DNA of 64,000 bases, taken from the IMG/VR virus record IMGVR_UViG_3300044673_000278, positions 1-64,000 of that record; one strand, 5' to 3'. The notes under the pieces were generated by a model. That model did no database searches and was not told the DNA's origin. It was given only the letters and a program-made list of their open reading frames with translations. Position 1 is the stretch's first letter. Every line of letters begins with the position of its first letter. Source of the DNA: a virus. The position numbers and the translations under genes are program-made. This document shows, one piece after another, positions 6,581-41,036 of the stretch.

Positions 6581-6609
6581 ATTGTATACTAGAGAGATTT
6601 AGTGGTCAA
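6581..6609 (-). promoter_or_regulatory. early promoter P15, -35 contains upstream stop codon
   Basis: TTGACC (6609-6604), 17 bp, TACAAT (6586-6581). TGA inside the -35 box terminates the 6606-6842 gene, the last of the preceding long operon. Confidence 0.8.
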
Positions 6610-6842
6610 GCCCACTTTAGGGTAAATGCGCAGAAGTCGCGCTCAGAATCAAAGTAAAAGGTGTAGCGGCCAGGACGAACGTCCGAACTCACCTCAATCA
6701 GTTGCCAGCGCCACTCGTCTTGCATTTCGCTTTTGCACCAGTTTATCACTGAATCAATGGTGCCAAAAGGTTTGGTGATTTCCCGTGCATGACGGAAACT
6801 TTCTCGATCCCTAATCTGATGAGCAGTGGCTACAGCGGTCAT
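6606..6842 (-). CDS. LKW-family array protein
   Basis: 78 residues. It shows the family layout: a central helix with W-C (SVINWCKSE), a W-rich strand, then YTFYFDSERDF and the terminal AFTLKWA. Last member of the 6.6-8.4 kb array; its stop lies in the -35 box of P15. Cytosolic; function unknown. Confidence 0.7.
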   Translation of the reverse strand: MTAVATAHQIRDRESFRHAREITKPFGTIDSVINWCKSEMQDEWRWQLIEVSSDVRPGRYTFYFDSERDFCAFTLKWA

Positions 6843-6851
6843 TTACATTAG

Positions 6852-7208
6852 TTATGCATGATTCCGGCGCCCTAACATTTTCCACGCAATAACTTGTTCC
6901 ATGCGATACACAAAATCTTCTGCGTATTTGAGTTCAGTAAATGCCACGGCTGTTAGTTCAGCGGTTCGACCAAACATATGATCAAGAAACTCAGGGCTCC
7001 ATGAATGACTCAGTACTATATCGGCGTTGACCCTAACACATTCAAAACCGTTGGTGATTCCCACACAGTAGTCACCAGTTTTGAATGCCTGCTCTAGCAT
7101 GATATATCGGTGTTCGCGCACAGAACCGCGGCCAGGCCAAGACACAGAATAGTGCAAGCCTTCCCATGGCGCAGACATTTGTCCAATATGAAAAATGTTG
7201 CTATTCAT
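6852..7208 (-). CDS. hypothetical protein inside array 1
   Basis: 118 residues from the ATG that overlaps (ATGA) the stop of the preceding array member. Longer upstream reading is a shadow of that gene. Contains a Trp/His-rich first half and a long C-terminal helix (YAEDFVYRMEQVIAWKML). It lacks the LKW tail, so it looks inserted between family members. Confidence 0.6.
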   Translation of the reverse strand: MNSNIFHIGQMSAPWEGLHYSVSWPGRGSVREHRYIMLEQAFKTGDYCVGITNGFECVRVNADIVLSHSWSPEFLDHMFGRTAELTAVAFTELKYAEDFVYRMEQVIAWKMLGRRNHA

Positions 7209-7438
7209 GACCAACGTAGACAAAAAGCAGTTAATGTAGGAGCATCGGGCAAGGTCAGTCCCATGCCTTGGATAAAGCCATTGTTTTGTTTGATCCAATC
7301 TTGTAGTTCATCGTAGTGATCGTTCCAGTATTCAAAATCACTGAGAATAACCACGTGTTCGCTGGGGTTGTCTAACAGGTCAGCAGGTGCCACTACAAAC
7401 CGAACGTTCTTAAACTCAGCCATGACGTCATCGGCCAT
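7205..7438 (-). CDS. LKW-family array protein
   Basis: 77 residues from 7438 (a shorter start exists at 7423; neither has a clear SD). Core VVILSDFEYWNDHYDELQDWIKQ, terminal TAFCLRWS. The last codons CGT TGG TCA TGA overlap the next start. Confidence 0.65.
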   Translation of the reverse strand: MADDVMAEFKNVRFVVAPADLLDNPSEHVVILSDFEYWNDHYDELQDWIKQNNGFIQGMGLTLPDAPTLTAFCLRWS

Positions 7439-7909: not shown

Positions 7910-8151
7910 CTTACATAATGCTTTCGAATGTAGTTGTCGGCCCAGTCACGGTCTTTTTCGTAGAACAACACGTTGTCAGTGATGTCAAATGCATTGCAAA
8001 AGCTCTGACCATATCTGAGATTTTGCAGTGCATCAAACAAGTAACCATAACGCCATGCTTCGTAATCTTCAACACTCACTGTGTAAAATTTGACCACACC
8101 GTAAGTCTGTTTGAGATCTTGTGTCATGGCAGCAAACACACCATTACCCAT
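7906..8151 (-). CDS. hypothetical protein in array 1
   Basis: 81 residues starting MGNGVFAAMTQDL. The open frame runs further up to 8283, but that part overlaps, in another frame, the better-conserved gene 8144-8356, so the short start (overlapping that gene's stop by 8 nt) is chosen. The C-terminus FYEKDRDWADNYIRKHYV resembles the family's F.f.r..DA segment but lacks LKW. Confidence 0.55.
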   Translation of the reverse strand: MGNGVFAAMTQDLKQTYGVVKFYTVSVEDYEAWRYGYLFDALQNLRYGQSFCNAFDITDNVLFYEKDRDWADNYIRKHYVR

Positions 8152-8356
8152 GCTTGAGACGCCAGATAAGGTGCTCGTCTCTGCGATGCCAGCGGTGCTC
8201 AAAAACTGGCTCACCGGGCCCGGTGTACATTGCTGTTCCACGATATGCATATTCAAACCAAATTTTCCTTCCTGAAATTTCACAAGTTCTGGGCCACAGC
8301 GCCAGTTTCAATTGCCAACCACGACAAAATGTATGAAACGAGTCGCTGTACATCAT
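8144..8356 (-). CDS. small conserved phage protein related to the array family
   Basis: 70 residues (MMYSDSFHTFCRGWQ...). The block IWFEYAYRGTAMYTGPGEPV followed by HRWHRRDEHLIWRLKHG ends like an LKW tail. ATG overlaps the stop of the 8353-9057 gene; stop overlaps the next ATG. It is hidden inside a longer open frame and would be missed if the longest start were taken. Confidence 0.6.
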   Translation of the reverse strand: MMYSDSFHTFCRGWQLKLALWPRTCEISGRKIWFEYAYRGTAMYTGPGEPVFEHRWHRRDEHLIWRLKHG

Positions 8357-9057
8357 GCCAACTCGATGTCGCCCAGCATGTAATATGCCCAGCCACGATG
8401 ATGGCCCTGGTGATATTTGCCATGTGCCCAGGCGTTGAGTTCTCTGGGCTGTTCTAGTAGATTCACTACCAGCCTGTGATAAGGATTGTCTGCTTTGATG
8501 GTAAGCATGTAAGGTGCTGTGCTGCCTTCTCGTGTCATCCACAGTTGAGTGTAATCGCCTGACCGGCGACTGCGATATATGCGTTCGATCACTGTGAATC
8601 GGCCTTGCACACGCTCAGTGGGTTCTCGTCGAGTCACAGATTGTGTTTGCTCTACCACACGATCCAGTGCCAGATCTTCTTCATAGAAGTAAGGCAGTCT
8701 GTACAGCAAACCAATGTCGCTTTTGTTTAGGCTCAGCGAGTTGGTGACCACGCCATACAACTTGCGCCGAAAGGTACTGATATTGTTGTTGCTCAACATA
8801 GTCAACATGATACGATCAGCATAGTACTTACGAAGTTCTACACTGACCCGCCGATCCCCTTCAGTGACCGGGACGGTTTCAAGATCAGCCCAACGATCAC
8901 CGGTGCGATTGGCTTCCTTCCAACGTCGATGCACAGCAATGGCCATGGCCACTGGATCGTCTTTGAACACCACTGGTTCTTCAGACTTGAGTTCTAGGCG
9001 CTCAAGGTCTTGTTTCCAATCGTCGATTTTTTCCAGCAAGACATTTACAGAATTCAT
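8353..9057 (-). CDS. conserved phage protein of unknown function
   Basis: 234 residues from MNSVNVLLEKIDDW. The N-terminal half is helical and charged (RRWKEANRTGDRWADLE); the C-terminal half is beta-rich, with WAHGKYHQGHHRGWAYYMLGD containing a His-rich patch. No catalytic motif recognised. ATG is 3 nt after the preceding stop. Confidence 0.65.
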   Translation of the reverse strand: MNSVNVLLEKIDDWKQDLERLELKSEEPVVFKDDPVAMAIAVHRRWKEANRTGDRWADLETVPVTEGDRRVSVELRKYYADRIMLTMLSNNNISTFRRKLYGVVTNSLSLNKSDIGLLYRLPYFYEEDLALDRVVEQTQSVTRREPTERVQGRFTVIERIYRSRRSGDYTQLWMTREGSTAPYMLTIKADNPYHRLVVNLLEQPRELNAWAHGKYHQGHHRGWAYYMLGDIELA

Positions 9058-9059
9058 AG

Positions 9060-9797
9060 TCAGTCCCACAGTGCTTGATAGTATTTGCCAAACAGTCGGA
9101 AGCCGTTTTGGATTCGCTTTTCTACCACCTGCATGCCTTCGTAATCACATTCGTAAGTGTCGTTGGGGCCGCGATCCATACGATAATGTGTGTGCTCACC
9201 TTTGGGTACCACATTGCCATTGATATCAACTGGCACAGACACAAAATCAATTTCGCCAGAACGGAACTCATCTTCCCACGAATCATCTGCTTTGTGTTCA
9301 AACGCAAAGATCATTTCGTCCATGACCCAATCCCATCGAGCATGATGATTGTCATCAGTATCCCAGTCATTTTGTTTGGGAGGAGCAGCAGTGCTACGCA
9401 AGTGTTCGGGCACATCCTCGTCATCCACAAACGGTGAGCCGTGCTTGGTTGCCTTGAGTTGCTTCAACATAGGCAAGATAATAGGAGTCAAGGTATAATC
9501 CATGCTCCAGCTATCCCAGCGATCGATTTTGATATACTTGATTTCAGGATGCACACGATCCAACACCCATTGAATTGCTCGGCTGATGGGTGTCAAGTAA
9601 TCTGATGCTTTTTCCACCCACTCAGGACGTTCTACATACTGGCGCTTTTCTCCGCGTCGGGCTCGTGCCTCGTCCTCAAGACTTTGCTCAAGAGTCCAGC
9701 GGCTGCACTTTGACCACTCGGTCCAGAAGAATAGGTAGTCCAACATGGTATATGGACTGATCCAGTGATCACGGGGCTTGCTGAGATATACTTTCAT
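9060..9797 (-). CDS. conserved phage protein (MKVYLSKPRDHWISPY family)
   Basis: 245 residues. Strongly conserved blocks of a family found in many tailed phages: MKVYLSKPRDHWISPYT, IKIDRWDSWSMDYTL, PMLKQLKATKHGSPFVDDED, and the C-terminal LFGKYYQALWD. No enzyme motif; role unknown. Its ATG overlaps the stop of an HFGVE-family gene, whose GGAG serves as SD. Confidence 0.8.
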   Translation of the reverse strand: MKVYLSKPRDHWISPYTMLDYLFFWTEWSKCSRWTLEQSLEDEARARRGEKRQYVERPEWVEKASDYLTPISRAIQWVLDRVHPEIKYIKIDRWDSWSMDYTLTPIILPMLKQLKATKHGSPFVDDEDVPEHLRSTAAPPKQNDWDTDDNHHARWDWVMDEMIFAFEHKADDSWEDEFRSGEIDFVSVPVDINGNVVPKGEHTHYRMDRGPNDTYECDYEGMQVVEKRIQNGFRLFGKYYQALWD

Positions 9798-10039
9798 TGT
9801 TCGACTCCGAAATGTTCTCTAATCTTTTGATACAGAGCATGTTGGTTGTATCCGTAACCATCGTGCCTGATAGTTTCTTTGCTCAACACTTGACAACATT
9901 CTTCTACGATCAACTCAGCGAACTTGGCCACATCCAGTTTTTCTGTGGGTTCAACTAACCCTTTGTCAAGAGCATAGTCCCCTGCTTGATCAGCAGAAAC
10001 AGCACTTTGCCTAATCAGTTCATAAATTCGTTCGTTCAT
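9794..10039 (-). CDS. HFGVEE-family small protein
   Basis: 81 residues: MNERIYELIRQ, then FAELIVEECCQVL, ending REHFGVEQ. Shares all three blocks with proteins at 16557, 26976 and 27227. The codons of FGV (TTC GGA GTC) place GGAG 7 nt before the next ATG. Function unknown. Confidence 0.7.
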   Translation of the reverse strand: MNERIYELIRQSAVSADQAGDYALDKGLVEPTEKLDVAKFAELIVEECCQVLSKETIRHDGYGYNQHALYQKIREHFGVEQ

Positions 10040-12979: not shown

Positions 12980-13009
12980 ATTGTAGCAAATAGTGTTGGT
13001 TGGGTGCAA
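12980..13009 (-). promoter_or_regulatory. promoter of the HTH gene
   Basis: TTGCAC (13009-13004), 18-bp spacer, TACAAT (12985-12980); leader with AGGAG. Weaker match than the TTGACC family. Confidence 0.65.
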
Positions 13010-13072
13010 TACAAAAAGGCAAGAAATTTTGGCAAAGTTCGCCATTTGTCACAGAATTTTAATATACGCAGA

Positions 13073-13080
13073 TATAAATA
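13073..13080 (+). promoter_or_regulatory. T4-type late promoter
   Basis: TATAAATA, the exact T4 late-promoter -10 element, 24 nt before the ATG at 13104, with no -35 box. Confidence 0.65.
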
Positions 13081-13103
13081 AGGTTGCAATAGGAGAGCGT
13101 AAC

Positions 13104-13535
13104 ATGTTGCAAGCATACACCACCATTACCAACGAATTAGAAACCCTGATCAAGGACGATCCTGTGCGTCCTGAGATTCCTGTTGACCGCAGAGTCAATG
13201 CCAACAGTCGCATTTATGTGCTCAAAGAAGGTGAACAAACGCAGGCCGTGACTTGCGTGAAGTTTTTGAACTCGGTGCCCTCGGCTGTGGATGAATTGGT
13301 GGACACAGTGGAATCGGCTACCACTGCGGTATTCTATACCATTTGGAGTTATGCTGCCGGTGCTGGACGTACCTTGATTCAAGAAGCCCAAAAAAGCATT
13401 GAAGCAGAATTTCCAGGGATCAACACCTATGTTACGCTGAGCCCAAAAACCGAAATGGCTCGTCGATTCCATTTGAAAAATGGTGCTGGTATCTACAGAG
13501 AAAACTCTGACACTGTGAACTACATCTATCGCTAA
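13104..13535 (+). CDS. late-expressed protein, possible GNAT-like fold
   Basis: 143 residues; SD AGGAG 8 nt before ATG. Central helices AVFYTIWSYAAGAGR; C-terminal TYVTLSPKTEMARRFHLKNGA and TVNYIYR resemble the acyl-CoA-binding end of GNAT-like decarboxylase/acetyltransferase folds, but the fit is partial. Preceded by a TATAAATA late element. Convergent with the array gene 13532, stops overlapping. Confidence 0.6.
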   Translation: MLQAYTTITNELETLIKDDPVRPEIPVDRRVNANSRIYVLKEGEQTQAVTCVKFLNSVPSAVDELVDTVESATTAVFYTIWSYAAGAGRTLIQEAQKSIEAEFPGINTYVTLSPKTEMARRFHLKNGAGIYRENSDTVNYIYR

Positions 13536-13741
13536 CACCAACGCAGTGTGAACATCACAGCATGTTCATGCTGACGAAAAAGCCAAGTGGTTCTGGTTCT
13601 GCCGTCAATGACATACTCAGCGGGATCTATGCCCAGTTTATACCAGTCACGATCAAACTCGCCAATGGTGGCTTCGCACCATAACTGCACTGAATACCAG
13701 TCTGGATTTTCTATGGTGATGCGATAAGGCCAGTCGTTCAT
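13532..13741 (-). CDS. LKW-family array protein (array 2, last)
   Basis: 69 residues. WYSVQLWCEATIG core, TTWLFRQHEHAVMFTLRWC tail. Start overlaps the preceding stop by ATGA; the upstream open frame is a shadow. Confidence 0.7.
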   Translation of the reverse strand: MNDWPYRITIENPDWYSVQLWCEATIGEFDRDWYKLGIDPAEYVIDGRTRTTWLFRQHEHAVMFTLRWC

Positions 13742-13968
13742 GCCCATTTCAATGCACATGCCACAGCATGCCTTTCTTCTTCGAACCAAATGTCCAATCG
13801 CTCGGTGGCTGACAGATAGCGTATATAAAATTTGTCCTTGTTCCACTCTACCAGTTCTAAGATCCAATCCCTAATATCTGCCACTTCATCTAGACGAGAT
13901 TTAATATTCCAAAGGCCTTTGCTCTTTAGAGTTACAAACACGCGATGATTGAGATTGTCGTTGATCAT
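13738..13968 (-). CDS. LKW-family array protein
   Basis: 76 residues. Core IRDWILELVEWNKD, tail DIWFEEERHAVACALKWA. Codons TTG AAA TGG GCA TGA overlap the next start. Confidence 0.7.
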   Translation of the reverse strand: MINDNLNHRVFVTLKSKGLWNIKSRLDEVADIRDWILELVEWNKDKFYIRYLSATERLDIWFEEERHAVACALKWA

Positions 13969-14216
13969 GACCACCTCAACACGAACCAATCACGGTCAGC
14001 AGGGTCTTTGAACCAGAATTTGGCACTGTTGACATACCACCGAGCCGCAGGCGTCCACACGCCATCTTCGGGAGTGGGCCCAAATGTGCTCACACACCAG
14101 GCCAACATTTCGTCCCAATCTTTTCTGAACCACGTGGGTGCAGGTGCAAAAAACAAAGGACGCACTGTCCAATACTGTTGTCCATACACCACACCTTCGC
14201 TGAGTTCGAGTTTCAT
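13965..14216 (-). CDS. LKW-family array protein
   Basis: 83 residues. One of the clearest members: WDEMLAWCVSTFGPTPEDGVW, then KFWFKDPADRDWFVLRWS. TTG AGG TGG TCA TGA gives a GAGG SD for the next gene. Confidence 0.75.
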   Translation of the reverse strand: MKLELSEGVVYGQQYWTVRPLFFAPAPTWFRKDWDEMLAWCVSTFGPTPEDGVWTPAARWYVNSAKFWFKDPADRDWFVLRWS

Positions 14217-14464
14217 GTCCATTTCAAACACAGCATGGTATAGGTTGGTTCATCGACATCAAAGATGCGGCCGTATCGTTCTTCGCCGCCACCGTACTCG
14301 TGCCACTGATCCCGGGGCTGACTTCTTAACCAAGCAGCAATATCTGTGCGGTAAGTGCGAATCACGTACCAAGGCTGATCGTCCACAGTGCCAGTGTTGA
14401 CCAATTCAAATGGTGGCAGATGATTAGCATTGACCCAACCGCCAGGAACAGAAACCAGTTTCAT
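14213..14464 (-). CDS. LKW-family array protein
   Basis: 83 residues. Core IAAWLRSQPRDQWHEY, tail FDVDEPTYTMLCLKWT. Start set at the ATGA overlap with the preceding gene. Confidence 0.7.
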   Translation of the reverse strand: MKLVSVPGGWVNANHLPPFELVNTGTVDDQPWYVIRTYRTDIAAWLRSQPRDQWHEYGGGEERYGRIFDVDEPTYTMLCLKWT

Positions 14465-14673
14465 ACCCACTTTAGTTTGCACAGCGTAATCATTTCTTCT
14501 GTGGTGTACAACACTGCACCAGGTGTGGTACGCCAACACAGTCCCCTCACATGTTGTTTGGCCCAGGCAACAATTTGTTCAGCAGTGCCAACTTCGCAAC
14601 AAAACTCTACCCGATAGTTGTACGGGTATTTGGGCGTTGGTTTATACATCAATTGTTGGACTTGGATCTTCAT
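14461..14673 (-). CDS. LKW-family array protein
   Basis: 70 residues. Core TAEQIVAWAKQHVRGLCW, tail LYTTEEMITLCKLKWV; the usual WC is WA here. Confidence 0.7.
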   Translation of the reverse strand: MKIQVQQLMYKPTPKYPYNYRVEFCCEVGTAEQIVAWAKQHVRGLCWRTTPGAVLYTTEEMITLCKLKWV

Positions 14674-14864
14674 GACCATTTCAATGCAAATAACACGGCA
14701 TCTGCCTCGTTGTGAAACCAAAAGGTGCGAAAAGTATCCCAGGCCCAACGGGTTCCGTTGGGTTCCGGTGGTCCGAAGTTTTGCACACACCACTTCCAAA
14801 CAGGATTAAGTCCGTCTGGACTGTATGTTTGGCGTGCTTTCTTGCTGACTTTGATTTCAATCAT
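14670..14864 (-). CDS. LKW-family array protein
   Basis: 64 residues. A minimal member: MIEIKVSKK strand, VWKWCVQNFGPPEPNGTRW, FRTFWFHNEADAVLFALKWS. Good reference for the family consensus. Confidence 0.75.
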   Translation of the reverse strand: MIEIKVSKKARQTYSPDGLNPVWKWCVQNFGPPEPNGTRWAWDTFRTFWFHNEADAVLFALKWS

Positions 14865-15085
14865 AACCACTTCAACTTAAACATCACAGCATCTTGCTCG
14901 CGAGCAAAATGATACTCAAGATAATCTGTGTAGTGATCCACATGCCACGGTTGTTGTTCTGTGACACTATCCCTAAACCTAGCATGAACTCCGACATTGG
15001 TCAACAACCACTTGTTGATAGGACTTTCGTCAATCCATCGGTTGCGTTGTTGTGGATGATACAGTCGAACGCTGGCCGCAATCAT
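14861..15085 (-). CDS. LKW-family array protein
   Basis: 74 residues. INKWLLTNVGV core, EYHFAREQDAVMFKLKWL tail. TTG AAG TGG TTA TGA junction. Confidence 0.7.
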   Translation of the reverse strand: MIAASVRLYHPQQRNRWIDESPINKWLLTNVGVHARFRDSVTEQQPWHVDHYTDYLEYHFAREQDAVMFKLKWL

Positions 15086-15369
15086 GACCACCTCAACTTC
15101 AAAAAAGCAGCCATTTCTGGCGGCACTACGAAAACACTTTCGAACCACAGATACCACGTGTACTTTTCTTTGGGAAAAGCTTCATTCATCCACGCAAACT
15201 CTTCGCCAATGACATCTACACAATAGTGCCCTTCGTATCCACTGGGCACTTCGTCTCTAAACGAATTAGGAAGTTTAAAAATGCTTGGTTTCGAGAGCCA
15301 ATCAGCATGTTGATCTAATTCTAAATCAGAGATAATAGTGCCAGGCATGGCTCGGAAATTTGCTTTCAT
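15082..15369 (-). CDS. LKW-family array protein, long variant
   Basis: 95 residues, with an extra N-terminal segment (DLELDQHADWLSKPS) before FAWMNEAFPKEKYTW and the tail FVVPPEMAAFLKLRWS. TTG AGG TGG TCA TGA junction with embedded GAGG. Confidence 0.7.
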   Translation of the reverse strand: MKANFRAMPGTIISDLELDQHADWLSKPSIFKLPNSFRDEVPSGYEGHYCVDVIGEEFAWMNEAFPKEKYTWYLWFESVFVVPPEMAAFLKLRWS

Positions 15370-15578
15370 GACCACCTCAATGCGAACATCACAGCATCTC
15401 GATGTGAGCGAAAATGCCACACAGTTTCGGACCGATTGAACATACCGCCGCGATAGTCGTCCTCACAGTTTTGCCGGCACCACTCAAACCTCTGATCTTT
15501 ACCCCACACCCAGCCGCCCGAATGTGGCACTGTCACACGGTGCTGGAGATCTCGGCTGCGACTGTATTTTGCTGTCAT
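15366..15578 (-). CDS. LKW-family array protein
   Basis: 70 residues. DQRFEWCRQNCEDDY core, TVWHFRSHRDAVMFALRWS tail, GAGG-bearing junction. Confidence 0.7.
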   Translation of the reverse strand: MTAKYSRSRDLQHRVTVPHSGGWVWGKDQRFEWCRQNCEDDYRGGMFNRSETVWHFRSHRDAVMFALRWS

Positions 15579-15766
15579 AACCACTTCAATGCAAACCACG
15601 CAAAGTTTTTTTCTCTGACACTGAATCCATAGCCATGCGGACCGCTGTATTCGTGCAAGTATTTGATATCGTTTTTTGTCATCCAAGATATTATATCTAA
15701 AAATTCTTGGAATGTTTTTACAAAATAATGGTTATCAGGATAACCTCTAACTTGATAAACTTTCAT
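15575..15766 (-). CDS. LKW-family array protein
   Basis: 63 residues. FLDIISWMTKNDIKYLHEY core, YGFSVREKNFAWFALKWL tail. Lower GC than its neighbours. Confidence 0.7.
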   Translation of the reverse strand: MKVYQVRGYPDNHYFVKTFQEFLDIISWMTKNDIKYLHEYSGPHGYGFSVREKNFAWFALKWL

Positions 15767-16047
15767 GCCCACCTCAACATAAATGCAGTGCGGTCGCGCT
15801 CGTGCTTGAAGTAGATGGTTTCCCAGTTCCAAATCCAGTCGTTGCCAAAATGCTGTTCACACCACTCGGCAACCTCCTCAAACGGAGCCACACCGTTGTA
15901 TTGCCAGCTAGGAAAGCGGTCTTTGACATAGCAAATAACAGCCCAAGAATCGGCAGTCATACGGTGACCGTCACCAACAAAGTTCATCAACTTGTCTTGC
16001 AAAGTTGCATGAATCAAATCAATTTTGAGCGTGTCCCGAACTTTCAT
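15763..16047 (-). CDS. LKW-family array protein, long variant
   Basis: 94 residues. N-terminal helical extension, then FEEVAEWCEQHFGNDWIW and TIYFKHERDRTAFMLRWA. TTG AGG TGG GCA TGA junction with embedded GAGG. Confidence 0.7.
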   Translation of the reverse strand: MKVRDTLKIDLIHATLQDKLMNFVGDGHRMTADSWAVICYVKDRFPSWQYNGVAPFEEVAEWCEQHFGNDWIWNWETIYFKHERDRTAFMLRWA

Positions 16048-16313
16048 GACCACCTCAAGCAGAACAGCAGATATTCTTTTTCGTCAGTGAAGTAGAATGT
16101 AGGATACTGATGGTGCCAGTTGGGCTCGTAGTAGCCGCCGTGGTAGAGGTTGTTGTAGCACCAGTCGGCCATGTCTTGCCACTGAGCTATTGGCACACTG
16201 TCAAACCGCCGAACGAATACTTGGGTCTTTGACGTGCTTACAGTCGCCACGGAATCGGAAGCCGGAACATGTGCATGATAGATTTCCACTGTGCTCTGTG
16301 ATTCGGTATTCAT
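16044..16313 (-). CDS. LKW-family array protein (array 2, first)
   Basis: 89 residues if started at ATG 16313, which overlaps the SWIM-protein gene by 113 nt; a GTG further in would give about 65-70 residues and a more usual overlap. Core WQDMADWCYNNLYHGGYY, tail TFYFTDEKEYLLFCLRWS. Confidence 0.6.
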   Translation of the reverse strand: MNTESQSTVEIYHAHVPASDSVATVSTSKTQVFVRRFDSVPIAQWQDMADWCYNNLYHGGYYEPNWHHQYPTFYFTDEKEYLLFCLRWS

Positions 16314-16560
16314 CGCCTTTGCTGCCTTTCACAATCCAATAACGGCCTTCAGGTTCTGGTTCCTTGAGCTTGGTCTTAAACTGCACAGGGTTGACCACAA
16401 ACTTACGCCCACGAGTATCAATTTTGATGGGATTCTTAAATGTTTTGATCTCCCCACCAGCGGGACGAAACGCATACATCTTGGTCTTTGAATCATCCAG
16501 CAAGTAGATGCCGTTGGGCACACTGTCCTTGTAGTCAGTGGTTTCAGCAAACCATTTCAT
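16201..16560 (-). CDS. SWIM-type zinc-finger phage protein
   Basis: 119 residues. The C-terminus CTCSGFRFRGDCKH is a CxC...CxH SWIM zinc site; upstream RYWIVKGSKGDEYRI is its usual lead-in. SWIM domains bind DNA or proteins. Overlaps the HFGLEE gene by 4 nt. Specific role unknown. Confidence 0.75.
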   Translation of the reverse strand: MKWFAETTDYKDSVPNGIYLLDDSKTKMYAFRPAGGEIKTFKNPIKIDTRGRKFVVNPVQFKTKLKEPEPEGRYWIVKGSKGDEYRITEHSGNLSCTCSGFRFRGDCKHVKDPSIRSAV

Positions 16561-16796
16561 TCTTCTTCTAATCCAAAATGTTCTAGGATTTGACGTGGGA
16601 CTTCATAGTTACCGTCAGCATAGCGTTCACCAACATCGGCACATGCCCGAACAATCAACTCGGCGAACTTTAGGTCTCGGGCTTTTTGAATTGTAGCCTC
16701 CCATGTCAAGCCATTCTCTATACCACGAAAGAAGGGAATCTCTACAGCAATTGCCGAACATTGACTAGCAATTTCTTGAATTCGTTGTTCGTTCAT
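16557..16796 (-). CDS. HFGVEE-family small protein
   Basis: 79 residues: MNEQRIQEIAS, KFAELIVRACADVGERY, ending ILEHFGLEEE. Its tail codons provide GGA upstream of the next ATG. ATG overlaps the preceding stop. Confidence 0.7.
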   Translation of the reverse strand: MNEQRIQEIASQCSAIAVEIPFFRGIENGLTWEATIQKARDLKFAELIVRACADVGERYADGNYEVPRQILEHFGLEEE

Positions 16797-17540: not shown

Positions 17541-17569
17541 ATTATAGCAAAAGACGAATTTCGGGTCAA
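17541..17569 (-). promoter_or_regulatory. early promoter P6
   Basis: TTGACC (17569-17564), 17 bp, TATAAT (17546-17541). Likely drives about 17 genes down to 13532, including array 2. Confidence 0.85.
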
Positions 17570-23302: not shown

Positions 23303-24355
23303 TTAGCTGCACCTAGTTTGACGCACAATGTCCACTGTGGCTTGTGTAATGTCCTGCACAGGCAGTTGAGTTAACGGCACAGTTAATACAATGCGTTCGC
23401 GGTTGAGCCCATTTACCCGAATCAAACCAGGACCAATGTTGGCAAAATATCTGGGCCTGTACTCAAATCCATCCACAAGTTCGGGCGCATTGTAGCAGTA
23501 AATCAGCTTTCTACCGCTGACTGTGTTCAATGTCATGCGGTACACAGGACGGTCTTCGGTCATGTGTTTCACGGAAATGTTCCATGCAAAGTCGTCATTG
23601 AACCAAGCACCCGGATCCCTGGCTATCATGTTTACAGCCAACTCAAAACGGCTACGAGCTCGAGTGCAATCTGCACCCATGCTGGTGCATTGCGGGTATT
23701 GATTGATGTTGCGTAGAGTTTCTTCCAACGCCTTGAGGTACGTCTTGCTCCAAGTCACTGAAAACGGCACTTGCAGTTGTCCTTGGCGCTGAGTGTCCAC
23801 AATCACTCTAGCAGGTTCCATGCCAACGTCAAACGCACGATGCGGAAAATCCTGCAACACTGTGCTGAGCACACGATCGCCGGACTGTTGCTGTTGTTGA
23901 AAAGACTGTATCTGTGCGGCAATAGTGCTGCCGCTGATTTCACGCGGTTGGGCTTGCTGGTGTAGCAGACGTCCAGCAATGGCACTGTGGGCCACCCATA
24001 CTTGCATACGCAGTCGAGTTTCACCAGCAAATTGACGGCGATCTGTGATCTCAAAACGATCTACGTAACCCGAAGCATAGGTCACAATGTCATTTCGCCT
24101 CAGGCGATAGTTTTGAGATTCGGTTTCGCTGAGAATCAGTGTTCCCACTGCTTGCTCAATGGCCAGCTTGAATGCTTCGTTTTTTGCATCTTCAAACGTG
24201 TCGCCGCGGCTTTCTACTTCAATATAGTAAACACGTTTGGTGTTTAGCACAACCCATTGGCCCACTGTGATCACAGTGCCAATGGCGCTGAGTGTTTGAG
24301 CCTGGGCCAGCGCGGAGGCCAGCACCAAGGCAAGAGCAGCAATGGTGCGGCGCAT
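23303..24355 (-). CDS. exported protein with FlgT-N-like domain
   Basis: 350 residues with a Sec signal peptide (MRRTIAALALVLASALAQA, cleavage before QT). VESRGDTFEDAKNEAFKLAIEQAVGTLI...IVTYASGYVDRFEI matches the N-terminal fold of FlgT/LPP20-type periplasmic proteins. Gln-rich linker, then a beta-rich C-terminal domain with Cys pairs. Periplasmic or outer-membrane associated. Follows a lipoprotein gene by 1 nt, suggesting a complex. Function in the phage unknown. Confidence 0.7.
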   Translation of the reverse strand: MRRTIAALALVLASALAQAQTLSAIGTVITVGQWVVLNTKRVYYIEVESRGDTFEDAKNEAFKLAIEQAVGTLILSETESQNYRLRRNDIVTYASGYVDRFEITDRRQFAGETRLRMQVWVAHSAIAGRLLHQQAQPREISGSTIAAQIQSFQQQQQSGDRVLSTVLQDFPHRAFDVGMEPARVIVDTQRQGQLQVPFSVTWSKTYLKALEETLRNINQYPQCTSMGADCTRARSRFELAVNMIARDPGAWFNDDFAWNISVKHMTEDRPVYRMTLNTVSGRKLIYCYNAPELVDGFEYRPRYFANIGPGLIRVNGLNRERIVLTVPLTQLPVQDITQATVDIVRQTRCS

Positions 24356-24356
24356 G

Positions 24357-25025
24357 TTACTGCATCATTTGTTGACGGATGTTGGTGCGCAGTGCGTTGT
24401 TCTTTTGATCCCAACGATACACCACACGCACAGTTCGACCGCCGTCTACAACATCACCTTCCACAAGGTACAGTCCGCCTAGGATACCTTGATTGCGAGT
24501 TTTGATTGAGTTGTTGACCACAGTGGCAATGCTCAGTGCGTCATTGCGAGTAGCAGTGTTGGTTTCACGATTGAAGTTGTTGGCATCCTGCGGTTGTTCG
24601 TCGGATTCTACAGATGCCACAATGTCACGACTGCGGTTGGTAGCAAAGTCGTTGACCTTGTTGTCACGAGCACGTTCCAGATTGCGGCTGACCATTCGTA
24701 CCGAAGTCTCAGAGCTGATGACTTCTTGGTTGATAAAGTCGTTGAGGCTTTTCTTGGCTTCCAGTTCGGCCACACGGTATGCTTCGCGCACAGAGTTTTG
24801 ACTGCGACCCCAGATAGGAGCATAGCCCACAGTTTCAATGGCTTCCAGTTTACCAGTTAGGCTGTAAACAACCCGGATCCCACGGCGCTTGAAGTCGCTC
24901 ACAGCCAGTTGCTCGCTGATTGCAGTTTGCGGTCCGGGATTGACGCCGGCAGCTGGCGGTGCATTTTTGGTTGAACCACAGGCAGTCAGTGCCAGCACAG
25001 CAGCCACAACAAGAACTCGTTTCAT
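24357..25025 (-). CDS. predicted lipoprotein
   Basis: 222 residues. Lipobox LTAC at 13-16 after a hydrophobic leader; Gly after the Cys, so not an inner-membrane-retention Asp. Central helical region AYRVAELEAKKSLNDFINQEV resembles LPP20/FlgP-type lipoproteins; C-terminal GLYLVEGDVVDGGRTVRVVYRW is beta-rich. Encoded directly upstream of the FlgT-N-like protein. SD AAAGGA, own early promoter. Confidence 0.75.
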   Translation of the reverse strand: MKRVLVVAAVLALTACGSTKNAPPAAGVNPGPQTAISEQLAVSDFKRRGIRVVYSLTGKLEAIETVGYAPIWGRSQNSVREAYRVAELEAKKSLNDFINQEVISSETSVRMVSRNLERARDNKVNDFATNRSRDIVASVESDEQPQDANNFNRETNTATRNDALSIATVVNNSIKTRNQGILGGLYLVEGDVVDGGRTVRVVYRWDQKNNALRTNIRQQMMQ

Positions 25026-25061: not shown

Positions 25062-25090
25062 ATTGTACACAAAAAATCATTTCTGGTCAA
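25062..25090 (-). promoter_or_regulatory. early promoter P18
   Basis: TTGACC (25090-25085), 17 bp, TACAAT (25067-25062). The -35 box lies in the last codons (Phe-Asp-Gln) of the 25077 array gene, which has lost the LKW ending. Confidence 0.75.
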
Positions 25091-25289
25091 ATGCCAGCGA
25101 AAACCACACAGCATCTTCCTTGCGTTCAAACCACACTGTGTTGGAACCATAATACAAGTAGAACCGACCTGGACTATCCATGAGTTGGAGTTGGCGTTTG
25201 ACCGCAGAGTACGGCTGGGTGCCAGGTACTCGTTGGACTTTGAACCAATGTTCCTGACGAATCCGTTTGTCTTTGTTCCAATACTTCAT
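25077..25289 (-). CDS. LKW-family array protein, altered tail
   Basis: 70 residues. Family layout with YYGSNTVWFERKEDAVWFSL, but the tail is AFDQK instead of LKW; the changed codons contain the -35 box of P18. Start at the ATGA overlap. Confidence 0.65.
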   Translation of the reverse strand: MKYWNKDKRIRQEHWFKVQRVPGTQPYSAVKRQLQLMDSPGRFYLYYGSNTVWFERKEDAVWFSLAFDQK

Positions 25290-25516
25290 GACCATTTCAA
25301 CTTAAACAAGGTTACAGCCGCGTCTGAATTCAACTTCCACATGTCGTAACTGGTGCGCAGTCCCAATTGGTTTGCTTGCACAAACTGATCGATTTCAGCG
25401 GCTTCGTGCTCATCAATTGCATAGCCCATGGGCGCTCCTGCACTACTGGCCGGACGCACACGCACCTTGCGCCGCAGCCAACTGAAGTGAAACCGCTGGC
25501 GTGGTGGCAATGTCAT
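25286..25516 (-). CDS. LKW-family array protein
   Basis: 76 residues from ATG 25516 (25522 also possible). IDQFVQANQLG core, tail NSDAAVTLFKLKWS. Basic N-terminus (LRRKVRVRP). Confidence 0.65.
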   Translation of the reverse strand: MTLPPRQRFHFSWLRRKVRVRPASSAGAPMGYAIDEHEAAEIDQFVQANQLGLRTSYDMWKLNSDAAVTLFKLKWS

Positions 25517-26755: not shown

Positions 26756-26979
26756 TCTTCAACTCCAAATTTTGCGTTTTCTTGACAGGCTTCAATGACA
26801 CCGGGTGTCAGACAGAGTTTGAGAATGTTACCCATCATTACTTGATTGTGTTGCATGGAAGAATCTAGTAACTTATGGTATTCTTCTTTAAACCAACTAA
26901 GTTGTTCGTTCTCGATTTCAAGTTGAGCGATTCGTTCTTGCATTTCAATAACTTGATATGCGAAATCTACAATATTCAT
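26752..26979 (-). CDS. coiled-coil protein with HFGVEE-like tail
   Basis: 75 residues. Leucine-rich coiled coil (VIEMQERIAQLEIENEQL), ending ENAKFGVEE, so the family tail is kept though the body differs. This suggests body replacement upstream of a conserved junction. Confidence 0.65.
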   Translation of the reverse strand: MNIVDFAYQVIEMQERIAQLEIENEQLSWFKEEYHKLLDSSMQHNQVMMGNILKLCLTPGVIEACQENAKFGVEE

Positions 26980-27230
26980 TCTTCAACTCCGAAATGTTGT
27001 TTGACAACTGCTTGACATGATTCAACACCCCATGTAAACCCTTCGTCTACTAGTTTGTTTTGCTTGTCTGTGTATTGTGGTTGTGCATTGAAATAGGCGC
27101 CTGCTTGTTCAATCTTGTTCAAACATTCCTGAACAATCAACTCGGCGAACTCTTGTTTATCTTCTTCGGTCCAAAGTAGACCTCTAAACCCATTTTGGGC
27201 CTGAATAAGTTCAAAAATTCGTTGGTTCAT
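26976..27230 (-). CDS. HFGVEE-family small protein
   Basis: 84 residues: MNQRIFELIQ, EFAELIVQECLNKI, tail VVKQHFGVEE. GGA GTT GAA GAA TGA overlaps the next ATG with GGAG as SD. Confidence 0.7.
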   Translation of the reverse strand: MNQRIFELIQAQNGFRGLLWTEEDKQEFAELIVQECLNKIEQAGAYFNAQPQYTDKQNKLVDEGFTWGVESCQAVVKQHFGVEE

Positions 27231-27454
27231 TCTTCAATTCCAAAATGCTTCTTTGCCACTGCAACACCTTCATCTACATCAGTGTAATGCAATACAATAT
27301 TGGTACATTCCCTGACAATCAACTCGGCGAACTTTTCAATTCGATCATCCCAGAGCTCGTGCGTTTCTACAACCTGGATCGGATTGCTTGCAAGATTGCG
27401 AGAGGATGTTTTGCCGCCTGCACGTTTAAAGAGTTCCTGAATTCGCTCGTTCAT
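27227..27454 (-). CDS. HFGVEE-family small protein
   Basis: 75 residues: MNERIQELFKR, KFAELIVRECTNIV, tail AKKHFGIEE. ATGA overlaps at both ends. Confidence 0.7.
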   Translation of the reverse strand: MNERIQELFKRAGGKTSSRNLASNPIQVVETHELWDDRIEKFAELIVRECTNIVLHYTDVDEGVAVAKKHFGIEE

Positions 27455-27639
27455 TTCACTTCTCCATATACGGCTTCGTAATCTTCGACACGCTTACGCA
27501 TTTCAGCAATGGCTTTTTCTTGTGCCGCAGGGTATCCACTGGCGGGACGATTGCGGTCAAGTCCTTGTAGGACAGATTTGTCTAGACTGATAGTTGCGTG
27601 ATTGTTTGTGCTAGGACTAGTCCCTCGTCCAATAATCAT
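27451..27639 (-). CDS. hypothetical protein
   Basis: 62 residues from MIIGRGTSPST; AGGAG 7 nt upstream. Disordered N-terminus, C-terminal helix EKAIAEMRKRVEDYEAVYG. Function unknown. Confidence 0.6.
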   Translation of the reverse strand: MIIGRGTSPSTNNHATISLDKSVLQGLDRNRPASGYPAAQEKAIAEMRKRVEDYEAVYGEVK

Positions 27640-38877: not shown

Positions 38878-39672
38878 ATGAGTATTGCGTTTGATTTAAT
38901 TTCTGATTTGCATGTTGACACCTGGGAACATGAATTTGATTGGACTGGTTGTGCTACCAGCCCTTATTGTATTGTAGCAGGTGATATATCTAAAAATCGA
39001 CAGCAAATGGTCCAGGTACTGCGACACTTAGGTCAATGCTATCAAGCAGTGTTTTTCATTGATGGCAACGACGAGCATGTTGAACACTTGGAACACCTCA
39101 GTCCCAGTTATTCTAGCCTAGCTAGACAAATACAAAAAATTCCCAATGTTGTATACTTACAGGACAATGTAGTTGTAGTGGACGGAGTAGCCGTGGTAGG
39201 AACCAACGGATGGTGGGGCTATGATCTTGATCTAAGCATTGATCCTGTGAGTGTGGCTTCATGGTGGCAGGACAAAGCTCAAGTATCTGACTCTGCTGTC
39301 AAAGCTGTGGCAAAAATGGCCACAACAGATGCAACATACTTGGTCAGCAGTGTGCGTAGATTACAATCGCACCAAGATGTTAAAAAGATTGTGGTAGTAA
39401 CTCACACAGTGCCACTCAGTGAACTAATCGAGCACGACATTGAACTAGAAGGGACCATGCGTTTCAACTGCATGGGCAATGCCTATATGCAACAGGTTTT
39501 AATGGCCGATCACACAGACAAAATACACACCTGGTGCTTTGGACATTACCATGGATCAATTGATCAAATTCGCCACGGCGTGCGCTTTGTCAGCAATTGC
39601 AGGGGTCGGGGTAATACACCCTGGAATCAATATGTGTATCATCCCCGCCGAATTGTTGTGGATCTCAATTAA
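38878..39672 (+). CDS. metallophosphoesterase
   Basis: 264 residues. ISDLHVDTW, VAGDISK, GNDEH (N in GNHE kept, H replaced by D), VTHTVP and FGHYHG. Related to the protein at 10600 but shorter. TAAATA lies 7 nt before the ATG and there is no SD, so it may be leaderless and late-expressed. Confidence 0.8.
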   Translation: MSIAFDLISDLHVDTWEHEFDWTGCATSPYCIVAGDISKNRQQMVQVLRHLGQCYQAVFFIDGNDEHVEHLEHLSPSYSSLARQIQKIPNVVYLQDNVVVVDGVAVVGTNGWWGYDLDLSIDPVSVASWWQDKAQVSDSAVKAVAKMATTDATYLVSSVRRLQSHQDVKKIVVVTHTVPLSELIEHDIELEGTMRFNCMGNAYMQQVLMADHTDKIHTWCFGHYHGSIDQIRHGVRFVSNCRGRGNTPWNQYVYHPRRIVVDLN

Positions 39673-39976
39673 CTGTTTCGGGCTCTAGCTTGATCTGCAA
39701 AGGATAGCTTTGAGCTCGGGCACTGATCAATACTTCAGAACCTTTTTGCTCTGCCACTTCAAACGGTAGCACAGCTACCACAGCAGAACCTTCTTCGTGA
39801 ATGTCCAGAGTAATTTCAGCTGCTGAATCTGCGGTATAATCAAAAAACTCCATGAGGCTTTCGATCACAAACTCCATGCTAGTGGTGTTGTCATTGAGAT
39901 AGATGACTTTGAATCGAGGGGGTTCTTGCACCATTTCTTGGGTGCGAGTGCGACTTTTTGTTTCAGCTTGTGCCAT
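39665..39976 (-). CDS. clpS: Clp protease adaptor ClpS
   Basis: 103 residues. FKVIYLNDNTTSMEFVIESL and DIHEEGSAVVAVLPFEVAEQK match ClpS; the Asn/Asp of LND, Met of TSMEF and His of DIHEEG form the N-degron pocket. Acidic flexible N-terminus. Delivers N-end-rule substrates to a Clp unfoldase; ClpA is its usual partner, and only ClpX is encoded here. Confidence 0.88.
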   Translation of the reverse strand: MAQAETKSRTRTQEMVQEPPRFKVIYLNDNTTSMEFVIESLMEFFDYTADSAAEITLDIHEEGSAVVAVLPFEVAEQKGSEVLISARAQSYPLQIKLEPETVN

Positions 39977-39992
39977 GTTGTTTCCTTGATAG

Positions 39993-40018
39993 CAGTGGCA
40001 GCACCATTGCTGCCACTG
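39993..40018 (-). other. perfect 11-bp hairpin before clpS
   Basis: CAGTGGCAGCA (39993-40003) / TGCTGCCACTG (40008-40018), 4-nt loop, no T run. It lies in the clpS leader just before AAGGA; may stabilise mRNA or modulate translation. Confidence 0.6.
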
Positions 40019-40057
40019 TATTTACACTATTATATCAGTTTTGATATGTGATAGCAA
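40019..40057 (-). promoter_or_regulatory. clpS early plus late-type promoter
   Basis: TTGCTA (40057-40052), 17 bp, TATAAT (40034-40029), immediately followed by TAAATA (40024-40019). Confidence 0.6.
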
Positions 40058-40481
40058 TAGCTTTAGGCTTGGCTTCTTCGGGAACCTCGCGCTCAAGATA
40101 TACGCTAAGAATACCATTGACCACAGTAGCACTCTTGACTTCGACGTGCTCTGCCAGTGTAAATGTGTGACGGAAGTCACGGCTGCTGATACCACGATGT
40201 AGATATTGGTGGTCAGCAAGTTCATCGCGTTTGCGTTCACCAGCAATGGTCAACACACGTTTTTCCAAGCTGATGTCAATTTCACCTTCTGCAAAACCAG
40301 CCACAGCCACTTCGATCGTAACTGTGTTTTCACCAGTTTTGATCACATTGTGTGGGGGATAATTAGAGTTGGTTTGTTGAGCTGTGACACGCATGAGTTC
40401 GTCGAACATTGAGTCAAAGCCAATTCCAAACTTGTGCAGTTGGGGAATATCGAAACTACGAAGGGTGAGAGTTTTTGTCAT
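40035..40481 (-). CDS. small heat-shock protein Hsp20 (IbpA type)
   Basis: 148 residues. Alpha-crystallin domain: NYPPHNVIKTGENTVTIEVAVAGF at the start, YLHRGISSRDFRHTFTLAEHVEV in the middle, GILSVYLEREVPEE at the end with the conserved G-x-L box. Holds unfolded proteins; same region as clpS and clpX. SD AAAGGAG. Confidence 0.9.
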   Translation of the reverse strand: MTKTLTLRSFDIPQLHKFGIGFDSMFDELMRVTAQQTNSNYPPHNVIKTGENTVTIEVAVAGFAEGEIDISLEKRVLTIAGERKRDELADHQYLHRGISSRDFRHTFTLAEHVEVKSATVVNGILSVYLEREVPEEAKPKAIAITYQN

Positions 40482-40512
40482 GTTGATCTCCTTTATTAAG
40501 CAAGTATGACAT

Positions 40513-40540
40513 AATGTAGCCCGACCATCGGCGCTACATT
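40513..40540 (-). other. hairpin in the hsp20 leader
   Basis: AATGTAGCCCGA (40513-40524) pairs with TCGG(C)GCTACATT (40528-40540), 12 bp with one bulge. No T run. Placed like the hairpin before clpS. Confidence 0.55.
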
Positions 40541-40542
40541 GT

Positions 40543-40575
40543 TATTTATTATACATGATTCATTGGTTCTATCAA
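40543..40575 (-). promoter_or_regulatory. hsp20 early plus late-type promoter
   Basis: TTGATA (40575-40570), 16 bp, TATAAT (40553-40548), overlapping TAAATA (40548-40543). Confidence 0.55.
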
Positions 40576-40812
40576 ACGATAATTGAGCAAATAGCTTTCA
40601 AAATTACTGGGTTTGGGATTCCAAGTCAGAGCAAAAAAGCTATAGGTAGTGTTGTCGTCAAACGTAACTCGTTTGGTGTATTTGATGTTTTTGGTGTTGT
40701 AGGCAATGCCGTGTTGCTTTGACCAACGATTGAGTTCTCTAGTGAGAATTTGATTCACATAAATGGCCGCTTGTCCAGCTGCATCTTTTGGCAAGCTGAA
40801 TTCGATGTACAT
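40549..40812 (-). CDS. hypothetical protein
   Basis: 87 residues. MYIEFSLPKDAAGQ, then a helix and YSFFALTWNPKPSNFESYLL. TGATG overlap with the S21 gene. Function unknown. Confidence 0.65.
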   Translation of the reverse strand: MYIEFSLPKDAAGQAAIYVNQILTRELNRWSKQHGIAYNTKNIKYTKRVTFDDNTTYSFFALTWNPKPSNFESYLLNYRLIEPMNHV

Positions 40813-41036
40813 CAGTACAGTTTTTTGGGCAAGGCCTGAGCTTCAAGCTGTTTTTGCCAACGATTTTTGGCAGCACTGCGTTTGCGTTTGCGAGTGGTAG
40901 TAGGCTTCTCGTAGAATTCGCGGTCACGCAAATCATTGAGTACGCCCGATGCTTGAATTTTCTTTTTGAACTTTCGCAATGCTCGTTCAACATTGCCATC
41001 TTGTACTAAGACACTGCGACCGTATAACTTACTCAT
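40812..41036 (-). CDS. rpsU: ribosomal protein bS21
   Basis: 74 residues. SVLVQDGNVERALRKFKKKIQASG, LNDLRDREFYEKPTTTRKRKRSAAKNR is the bS21 signature (ALRRFKR..E..G...E.R.R.fYEKP). Small-subunit protein near the anti-Shine-Dalgarno site; phage copies have been reported and are thought to bias initiation. Overlaps clpX by 8 nt. Confidence 0.88.
   Translation of the reverse strand: MSKLYGRSVLVQDGNVERALRKFKKKIQASGVLNDLRDREFYEKPTTTRKRKRSAAKNRWQKQLEAQALPKKLY

Follow-up and report, generated by a model that had tools for sequence, protein, structure and literature searches.

A tandem array of small overlapping genes from one protein family in a T4-related jumbo myophage, with gene ends that mostly double as predicted ribosome-binding sites

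Why does the genome of a large freshwater-type phage carry twelve small genes in an unbroken row, all closing on nearly the same three residues? The row lies at 13532-16313 on the minus strand of the IMG/VR virus record IMGVR_UViG_3300044673_000278, and the window analysed here is the first 64 kb of this 251.7 kb record. An initial annotation had regarded these genes, together with seven more in the window, as one expanded family in a compact phage genome, a phrase that is misleading for a record of this length. The terminase and tail sheath of the record assign it to the T4-related jumbo myophages; among terminases of named phages, the PA5oct group comes nearest (54%), followed by Sinorhizobium phage Phosso (50%), and terminases 71-88% identical are found on 80 IMG/VR contigs. 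The twelve successive open reading frames (ORFs), of 63-95 codons and with L(K/R)W before the final residue, are all present, as are the four further members at 6606, 7205, 7428 and 7682, with one unrelated gene (6852-7208) in between, and the three at 25077, 25286 and 25513. Across the remaining 188 kb of the record, L(K/R)W-type ends occur at background level only.

These genes do form one real family. Built from the 19 window proteins, a profile matches other phage records with expectation (E) values down to 4.5e-17, and gives matches in 7 of 50 related records. A held-out profile, trained on non-window members only and then run against the 19 window proteins, recovered seven of the twelve array genes at E<1e-7; its values include 3e-14 for m12, 4e-14 for m6, 9e-14 for a1, 3e-11 for m3, 3e-10 for both c3 and m9, and 1e-9 for m1. 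With the last six residues removed it still finds 14 of the 19 members at E<0.01 (m4, m5, m8 and a2 do not reach this level individually), and with the last 20 removed it finds six at E<1e-3, so the similarity is not limited to the tail. The outcome that the initial annotation had named as fatal to its own proposal, unrelated folds alike only in their last six residues, is therefore not what was found. The members in the window are as follows.

6606..6842, minus strand: a1, 78 amino acids; the most widely conserved member (at least 80 loci in one scan for its orthologs)
7205..7423, minus strand: a2, 72 amino acids; ortholog in locus L167
7428..7685, minus strand: a3, 85 amino acids; ortholog in L168
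7682..7909, minus strand: a4, 75 amino acids; second widely conserved type, in a cluster of 41 members
13532..13741, minus strand: m1, 69 amino acids; final array gene, stop TAG, nothing coupled downstream; LRW codons CTG CGT TGG
13738..13968, minus strand: m2, 76 amino acids; held-out profile E 4e-4
13965..14216, minus strand: m3, 83 amino acids; orthologs in other arrays, L259-L262
14213..14464, minus strand: m4, 83 amino acids; marginal alone (held-out profile 0.013)
14461..14673, minus strand: m5, 70 amino acids; missed by the held-out profile, placed by tail, position and layout
14670..14864, minus strand: m6, 64 amino acids; held-out E 4e-14, and 7e-4 without the last 20 residues
14861..15085, minus strand: m7, 74 amino acids; placed by ORF, junction and held-out profile
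15082..15369, minus strand: m8, 95 amino acids; marginal alone (held-out profile 0.02)
15366..15578, minus strand: m9, 70 amino acids; ortholog in L264 immediately after the m12 ortholog
15575..15766, minus strand: m10, 63 amino acids; missing between the m12 and m9 orthologs in L264
15763..16047, minus strand: m11, 94 amino acids; likewise missing there in L264
16044..16250, minus strand: m12; start proposed here, GTG at 16250
25077..25289, minus strand: c1, 70 amino acids; tail FSLAFDQK
25286..25516, minus strand: c2, 76 amino acids
25513..25755, minus strand: c3, 80 amino acids; ortholog in L264

Two of the earlier assignments need revision. The start given to m12, an ATG at 16313, falls within the upstream SWIM-like gene; GTG at 16250 suits the length of the family better and is the more likely start. 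The ORF at 8144-8542, listed before as a distant relative, overlaps two better ORFs and is not matched by the profile, and is for both reasons rejected as a member.

The proteins are single domains of 60-95 residues, and the two members modelled also agree in their predicted fold. AlphaFold was run for a1 on an alignment of 53 of its orthologs (predicted local distance difference test score, pLDDT, 77) and for m1 on one of 67 other members (pLDDT 82); the order is strand-helix-strand-strand-helix in either model, and as the two alignments have no sequence in common, their agreement amounts to an independent repeat. As modelled, the arrangement is ferredoxin-like but truncated: the final strand of the four-stranded ferredoxin-like or ACT arrangement (beta-alpha-beta-beta-alpha-beta) is missing in both. 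In a viral structure library (BFVD), the best match is A0A6J5L980, with an E value of 6e-4 and a template modelling score (TM-score) of 0.77, and the top matches are nearly all uncharacterised proteins of 55-92 residues from "uncultured Caudovirales phage", together with one of Atu_ph07. These small phage proteins, similar in predicted structure and carrying no description, family name or function, probably belong to the same family. Among diverged members the conserved columns are a W in helix 1, a W/Y in strand 2, an F closing strand 3 and, in helix 2, D-A-x-x-F-x-L-K/R-W; they are chiefly hydrophobic or aromatic, with a few D, G and K/R positions, and look like positions of the protein core. 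Outside them the paralogs vary, including in net charge, from -7 to +7, and have the last helix in common. This range of charge rules out a DNA-mimic role for the family as a whole. The column survey revealed no polar ligand-binding motif conserved family-wide, and without a conserved polar site an enzyme function is unlikely.

The gene ends also seem to serve at the level of RNA. At all 11 array junctions the stop and start codons overlap in the four bases ATGA. The coupling junction at 16044..16058 on the minus strand, TTGAGGTGGTCATGA (coding stretch at the junction, TTGAGGTGG), encodes LRWS and a stop codon and also holds a GAGGT Shine-Dalgarno sequence and the start of the next gene; ten others like it follow down the array. 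Coupled genes mostly use TTG, then AGG, AAG or AAA, then TGG, followed by N-N-ATGA, so that most of them have GAGGT (or GAAGT) immediately ahead of the following start codon. The arginine of LRW is written AGG in 40 of 59 cases if a gene follows, versus 4 of 18 if none does (Fisher p 9e-4), the share of this codon in the genome being 5.7%. In the array, codon identity for the same residue in the L-K/R pair is 0.64-0.76 versus 0.26 expected; for the nine codons upstream of the tail it is 0.47-0.52 versus 0.46-0.47. Long recombination tracts at the gene ends are ruled out by this restriction of the excess to the L-K/R-W codons. Phosso retains the LRW motif in its proteins with a codon identity of 0.24 versus 0.24 expected and thus without bias, and in the window L-R-W is kept with other codons in m1 (CTG CGT TGG), a2 (CTA CGT TGG) and c3 (CTG CGA TGG). 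Judged from the Phosso sequences, the protein motif looks primary, and the Shine-Dalgarno function looks like a later addition in this lineage.

Related loci differ in their gene content at these ends. In L264 the next gene after the ortholog of m12 is the ortholog of m9 (81% identical DNA); m11 and m10, about 470 bases, are missing exactly at TTGAGGTGGTCATGA. The interval between the neighbours c4-c3 and c2 is a cassette site: it encloses no member in L248, L249, L253, L254 and L255, one member, differing by locus, in L250, L252, L256 and L257, and nine in L247, two of which are those found singly elsewhere. L259 and L261 have members in common in a different order. Together, these three comparisons indicate turnover by whole genes, through gain, loss and change of order. 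For several array genes no ortholog was found anywhere searched, and the array shows no broken gene. The 15-base junction may mediate this turnover, or may be no more than a place that tolerates such changes.

The initial annotation had seen in this divergence the mark of diversifying selection. In six ortholog groups, however, the pairwise ratio of nonsynonymous to synonymous substitution rates (dN/dS) is 0.15-0.33, and in most of them the bodies do not evolve faster than the tails, which contradicts continuing diversifying selection for the members that can be tested. The method is coarse and pairwise, with dS near 1 and synonymous sites near saturation, so that recent bursts at few sites would escape it, and the result covers the members with orthologs, lineage-specific members falling outside it. 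The related observation, that the middle is diverged and the tail kept, holds between paralogs, with their common last helix, but is reversed within the a1 orthologs, where the middle is most conserved: strands 2 and 3 (WRWQLVE and GRYIFYF) are the least variable part, nearly invariant across 53 sequences. Taken together with the low dN/dS, this means that each paralog keeps its own middle. Such purifying selection within orthologs, and the conserved middle of a1, fit the idea of one fixed partner per paralog.

How far does the family reach? No part of the mixed-member profile is constant enough to serve as a search pattern, and ortholog sets were used in its place. Many contigs of jumbo myophages in IMG/VR carry orthologs and further arrays; 311 members were counted at the loci examined, forming 79 clusters at 38% identity, and a search with the G041 ortholog of m1 matches 12 IMG/VR loci. 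Among named phages, an iterated profile matches three proteins of PA5oct, two to three of Atu_ph07 and 41 of Phosso (PV764938), a cultured phage of 469 kb in which the matches are annotated as hypothetical where checked. It has no match in T4, S-PM2, HTVC008M, phiM12, CBB or Vibrio phage 2.275, and a second profile has none in phiKZ, P-SSM2, XacN1, BcepSauron or CcrColossus. Direct searches of named phages with single member proteins gave nothing convincing; these phages are reached by profiles only. The proposal of large lineage-specific expansions is sustained by these comparisons: the usual copy number is 2-6 per related record, versus 16-18 in G000, 15 in G041, 21 in G083, 10 in G099 and 41 in Phosso. 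Among 67 members scanned, no Pfam or NCBIfam family was matched above its curated cut-off, isolated single-member matches apart; PHROG gave no consistent match, either for these members (the best, phrog_19887, has no function and matches four of the 67 at 6e-4) or for the a1 orthologs, and PADLOC defence proteins gave only weak single-member ones. The only match of a1 in a bacterial genome (L271, Chitinophaga) lies within a transporter gene and is spurious.

Expression of the array can be considered from the following feature.

17541..17569, minus strand: promoter match, sigma70-like with extended -10 (TTGACC-17-TATAAT, TG before the -10), upstream of the operon closed by the array

The motif TTGA(C/T)N-16/18-TATAAT has 18 copies in the record versus one in a reversed control, all 18 on the minus strand, most of them a short distance ahead of a start codon. 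A resemblance to host sigma70 promoters suggests that the array operon may be expressed early. No promoter- or terminator-like sites above shuffled expectation are found in the array region itself. The promoter-like motif of which the 18 copies follow a looser pattern, TTGACC..AAATTC...TGCTATAAT, recurs at window positions 1077, 1606, 3663, 12617, 17569, 18984, 28215 and 48602, among others. The PA5oct members carry no mass-spectrometry note in their record and several neighbouring genes do, a mild argument against a role in the virion.

We propose, tentatively and at a little under an even chance, that the array consists of translationally coupled cassettes of single-domain binding proteins, probably expressed early and each fixed on its own target. 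From a sigma70-like and probably early promoter, the array genes of one operon would be translated serially by termination and reinitiation. The domain would offer a stable scaffold with a variable surface, and each paralog would bind, as an inhibitor or adaptor, a fixed target of its own in the host cell, be it a protein or something else, so that added cassettes could bring new targets with the expression of their neighbours undisturbed. By analogy with the early proteins of phiKZ, the setting would most likely be host takeover or counter-defence. Small proteins with a common core and different surfaces, coupled translation and lineage-specific content fit a repertoire of binding proteins, and the suggestion in the initial annotation of inhibitors of varied host targets remains plausible for these putative binders. 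A bolder version, which we regard as possible but doubtful, is a combinatorial repertoire in which one scaffold yields many binders, the 3' end of each gene serves at once as protein core, next ribosome-binding site and recombination junction, and each lineage holds a set of 2 to 40 host-directed proteins.

Several observations weigh against the proposal of coupled binding cassettes. The held-out profile gives marginal values for m4, m8 and m10 (0.01-0.06) and 0.4 for a2, and does not match m5, so that these five are assigned to the family by their tail, position and layout; sequence by itself makes a thin case for a few members. Model confidence is moderate, and two members were modelled; matches of the fold in the PDB by Foldseek (ACT domains, PII-like proteins, VPA0419) are weak, all with E 0.04 or worse, and the family has no characterised homolog. 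Certain window junctions (GAAATGG) make poor Shine-Dalgarno sequences, and in some relatives the genes lie apart or are coupled via other stops. The early timing is based on promoter resemblance only, and one copy of the promoter motif precedes a gene of the structural region.

Other explanations account for parts of the same evidence. If the likeness were confined to the last codons, where the next gene has its ribosome-binding site, and the proteins were otherwise unrelated, the bias to TTG-AGG/AAG-TGG where a gene follows would be expected; yet m1, with no gene after it, a2 and c3 keep L-R-W with other codons, Phosso keeps it free of bias, the truncated proteins are still matched and the predicted fold is common, so that this RNA-level artefact is largely refuted for most members and is altogether very improbable. 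An arms race, with effectors under continuing diversifying selection against host defence proteins, would explain the expansion, the extreme divergence of paralogs and the lineage-specific cassette content, but is unlikely in view of the low dN/dS, the bodies that are mostly no faster than the tails and the nearly invariant strands of a1.

The presence of ACT domains and PII-like proteins among the best PDB fold matches of a1 raises the prospect of small-ligand sensors or sponges, in which a truncated ferredoxin fold of this type would bind metabolites or signalling nucleotides, for instance to blunt nucleotide-based defence. This we hold to be improbable, as those matches are weak, the fourth strand is missing, the m1 model has no ACT match of useful score and the family has no common polar motif for a ligand. 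It is also decidedly unlikely, if slightly less so, that the array grew by non-adaptive accumulation of inserted, coupled copies that are expressed and harmless, most of them doing little: a copy number ranging from 2 to 41 and the array genes that have no ortholog would suit this idea, but the members with orthologs are under purifying selection and no array gene is seen to be broken.

Other genes noted in the window are these.

about 16201-16560, minus strand: SWIM-zinc-finger-like gene, below the Pfam cut-off, directly upstream of the array in the same operon
12993-13532, plus strand: match to the malonyl-CoA decarboxylase C-terminal family (E 7e-8), product possibly of acetyltransferase-type fold judging by this match; converges on the array end
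40549..40812, minus strand: distant member of the LKW family with a C-terminal extension, adjoining a bS21-like gene; profile E 6e-5
9794-10039, 16557-16796, 26976-27230 and 27227-27493: window copies of a second small-protein family (record copies at 79056, 79262 and 234098)

The TAG at the array end thus faces a convergent plus-strand gene. By sequence inspection, ClpS-like, Hsp20-like chaperone and bS21-like genes stand together at 39665-41036, with the distant member between them. Two genes at 23303-25025 whose starts look like those of lipoproteins or signal peptides (MKRVLVVAAVLALTACGS and MRRTIAALALVLASALAQA), and which have no PHROG match, adjoin the c1-c3 cluster. The second small-protein family (MNxRIxELI ... 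FAELIVxEC ... HFGVEE) has seven copies in the record, some as overlapping pairs. Another distant member of the LKW family lies at about 233.9 kb of the record; the protein at 233853-234116 (L009:9853-10116) has an LKW-family-like body, and its C-terminus, DANLFKQHFGVESV, is similar to that of the neighbouring FAELIV family; by these resemblances it is possibly a chimera of the two multi-copy families.

Giant phages have small genes in the hundreds to which no function is attached. For part of this dark matter, a family present in many freshwater-type jumbo phages now offers a common predicted fold, a clear architecture of its genes and an observable way of turning over. Should its members prove to be host-directed binders, any array would be a ready list of probes for the weak points of a host. 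The cultured phages PA5oct, Atu_ph07 and Phosso make the family accessible to experiment, Phosso being the best laboratory system.

In the literature searched, no description was found of the family, of its size or of an array with gene ends that double as ribosome-binding sites. A plastic region of small accessory genes, on the other hand, is an already known kind of region. Ferredoxin-like domains such as the ACT domain of TyrA (5v0s), VPA0419 (2jz5) and PII-like SbtB have the same order of strands and helices as a1, with TM-scores of 0.5-0.6, but a1 differs from them in having no last strand and no sequence similarity. The "ORFanage" of S-PM2, a run of small unknown genes absent from close relatives (PMC4503421), is likewise a small-gene run of a T4-like myophage, but its genes are described as ORFans, and the LKW family has no match in that phage. 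In T4-type phages, small genes are shuffled by mobile promoter-stem-loop elements, PeSLs (Arbiol 2010, Comeau 2014, cited in PMC4503421). As far as the account given there goes, the array resembles PeSL systems in the gain, loss and rearrangement of small genes at a regulatory element that recurs within a plastic region of the genome; it differs in that the repeated element is not a promoter with a stem-loop but the last codons with their ribosome-binding site, and in that the shuffled genes are of one family. The PeSL arrangement itself is not seen in the array, where the genes overlap and leave no spacer for such sites. Finally, the early proteins of phiKZ, which target host ribosomes (PMC10914614), come from a phage with no match to the family, and provide a precedent for early proteins of unknown function in a giant phage that bind complexes of the host.

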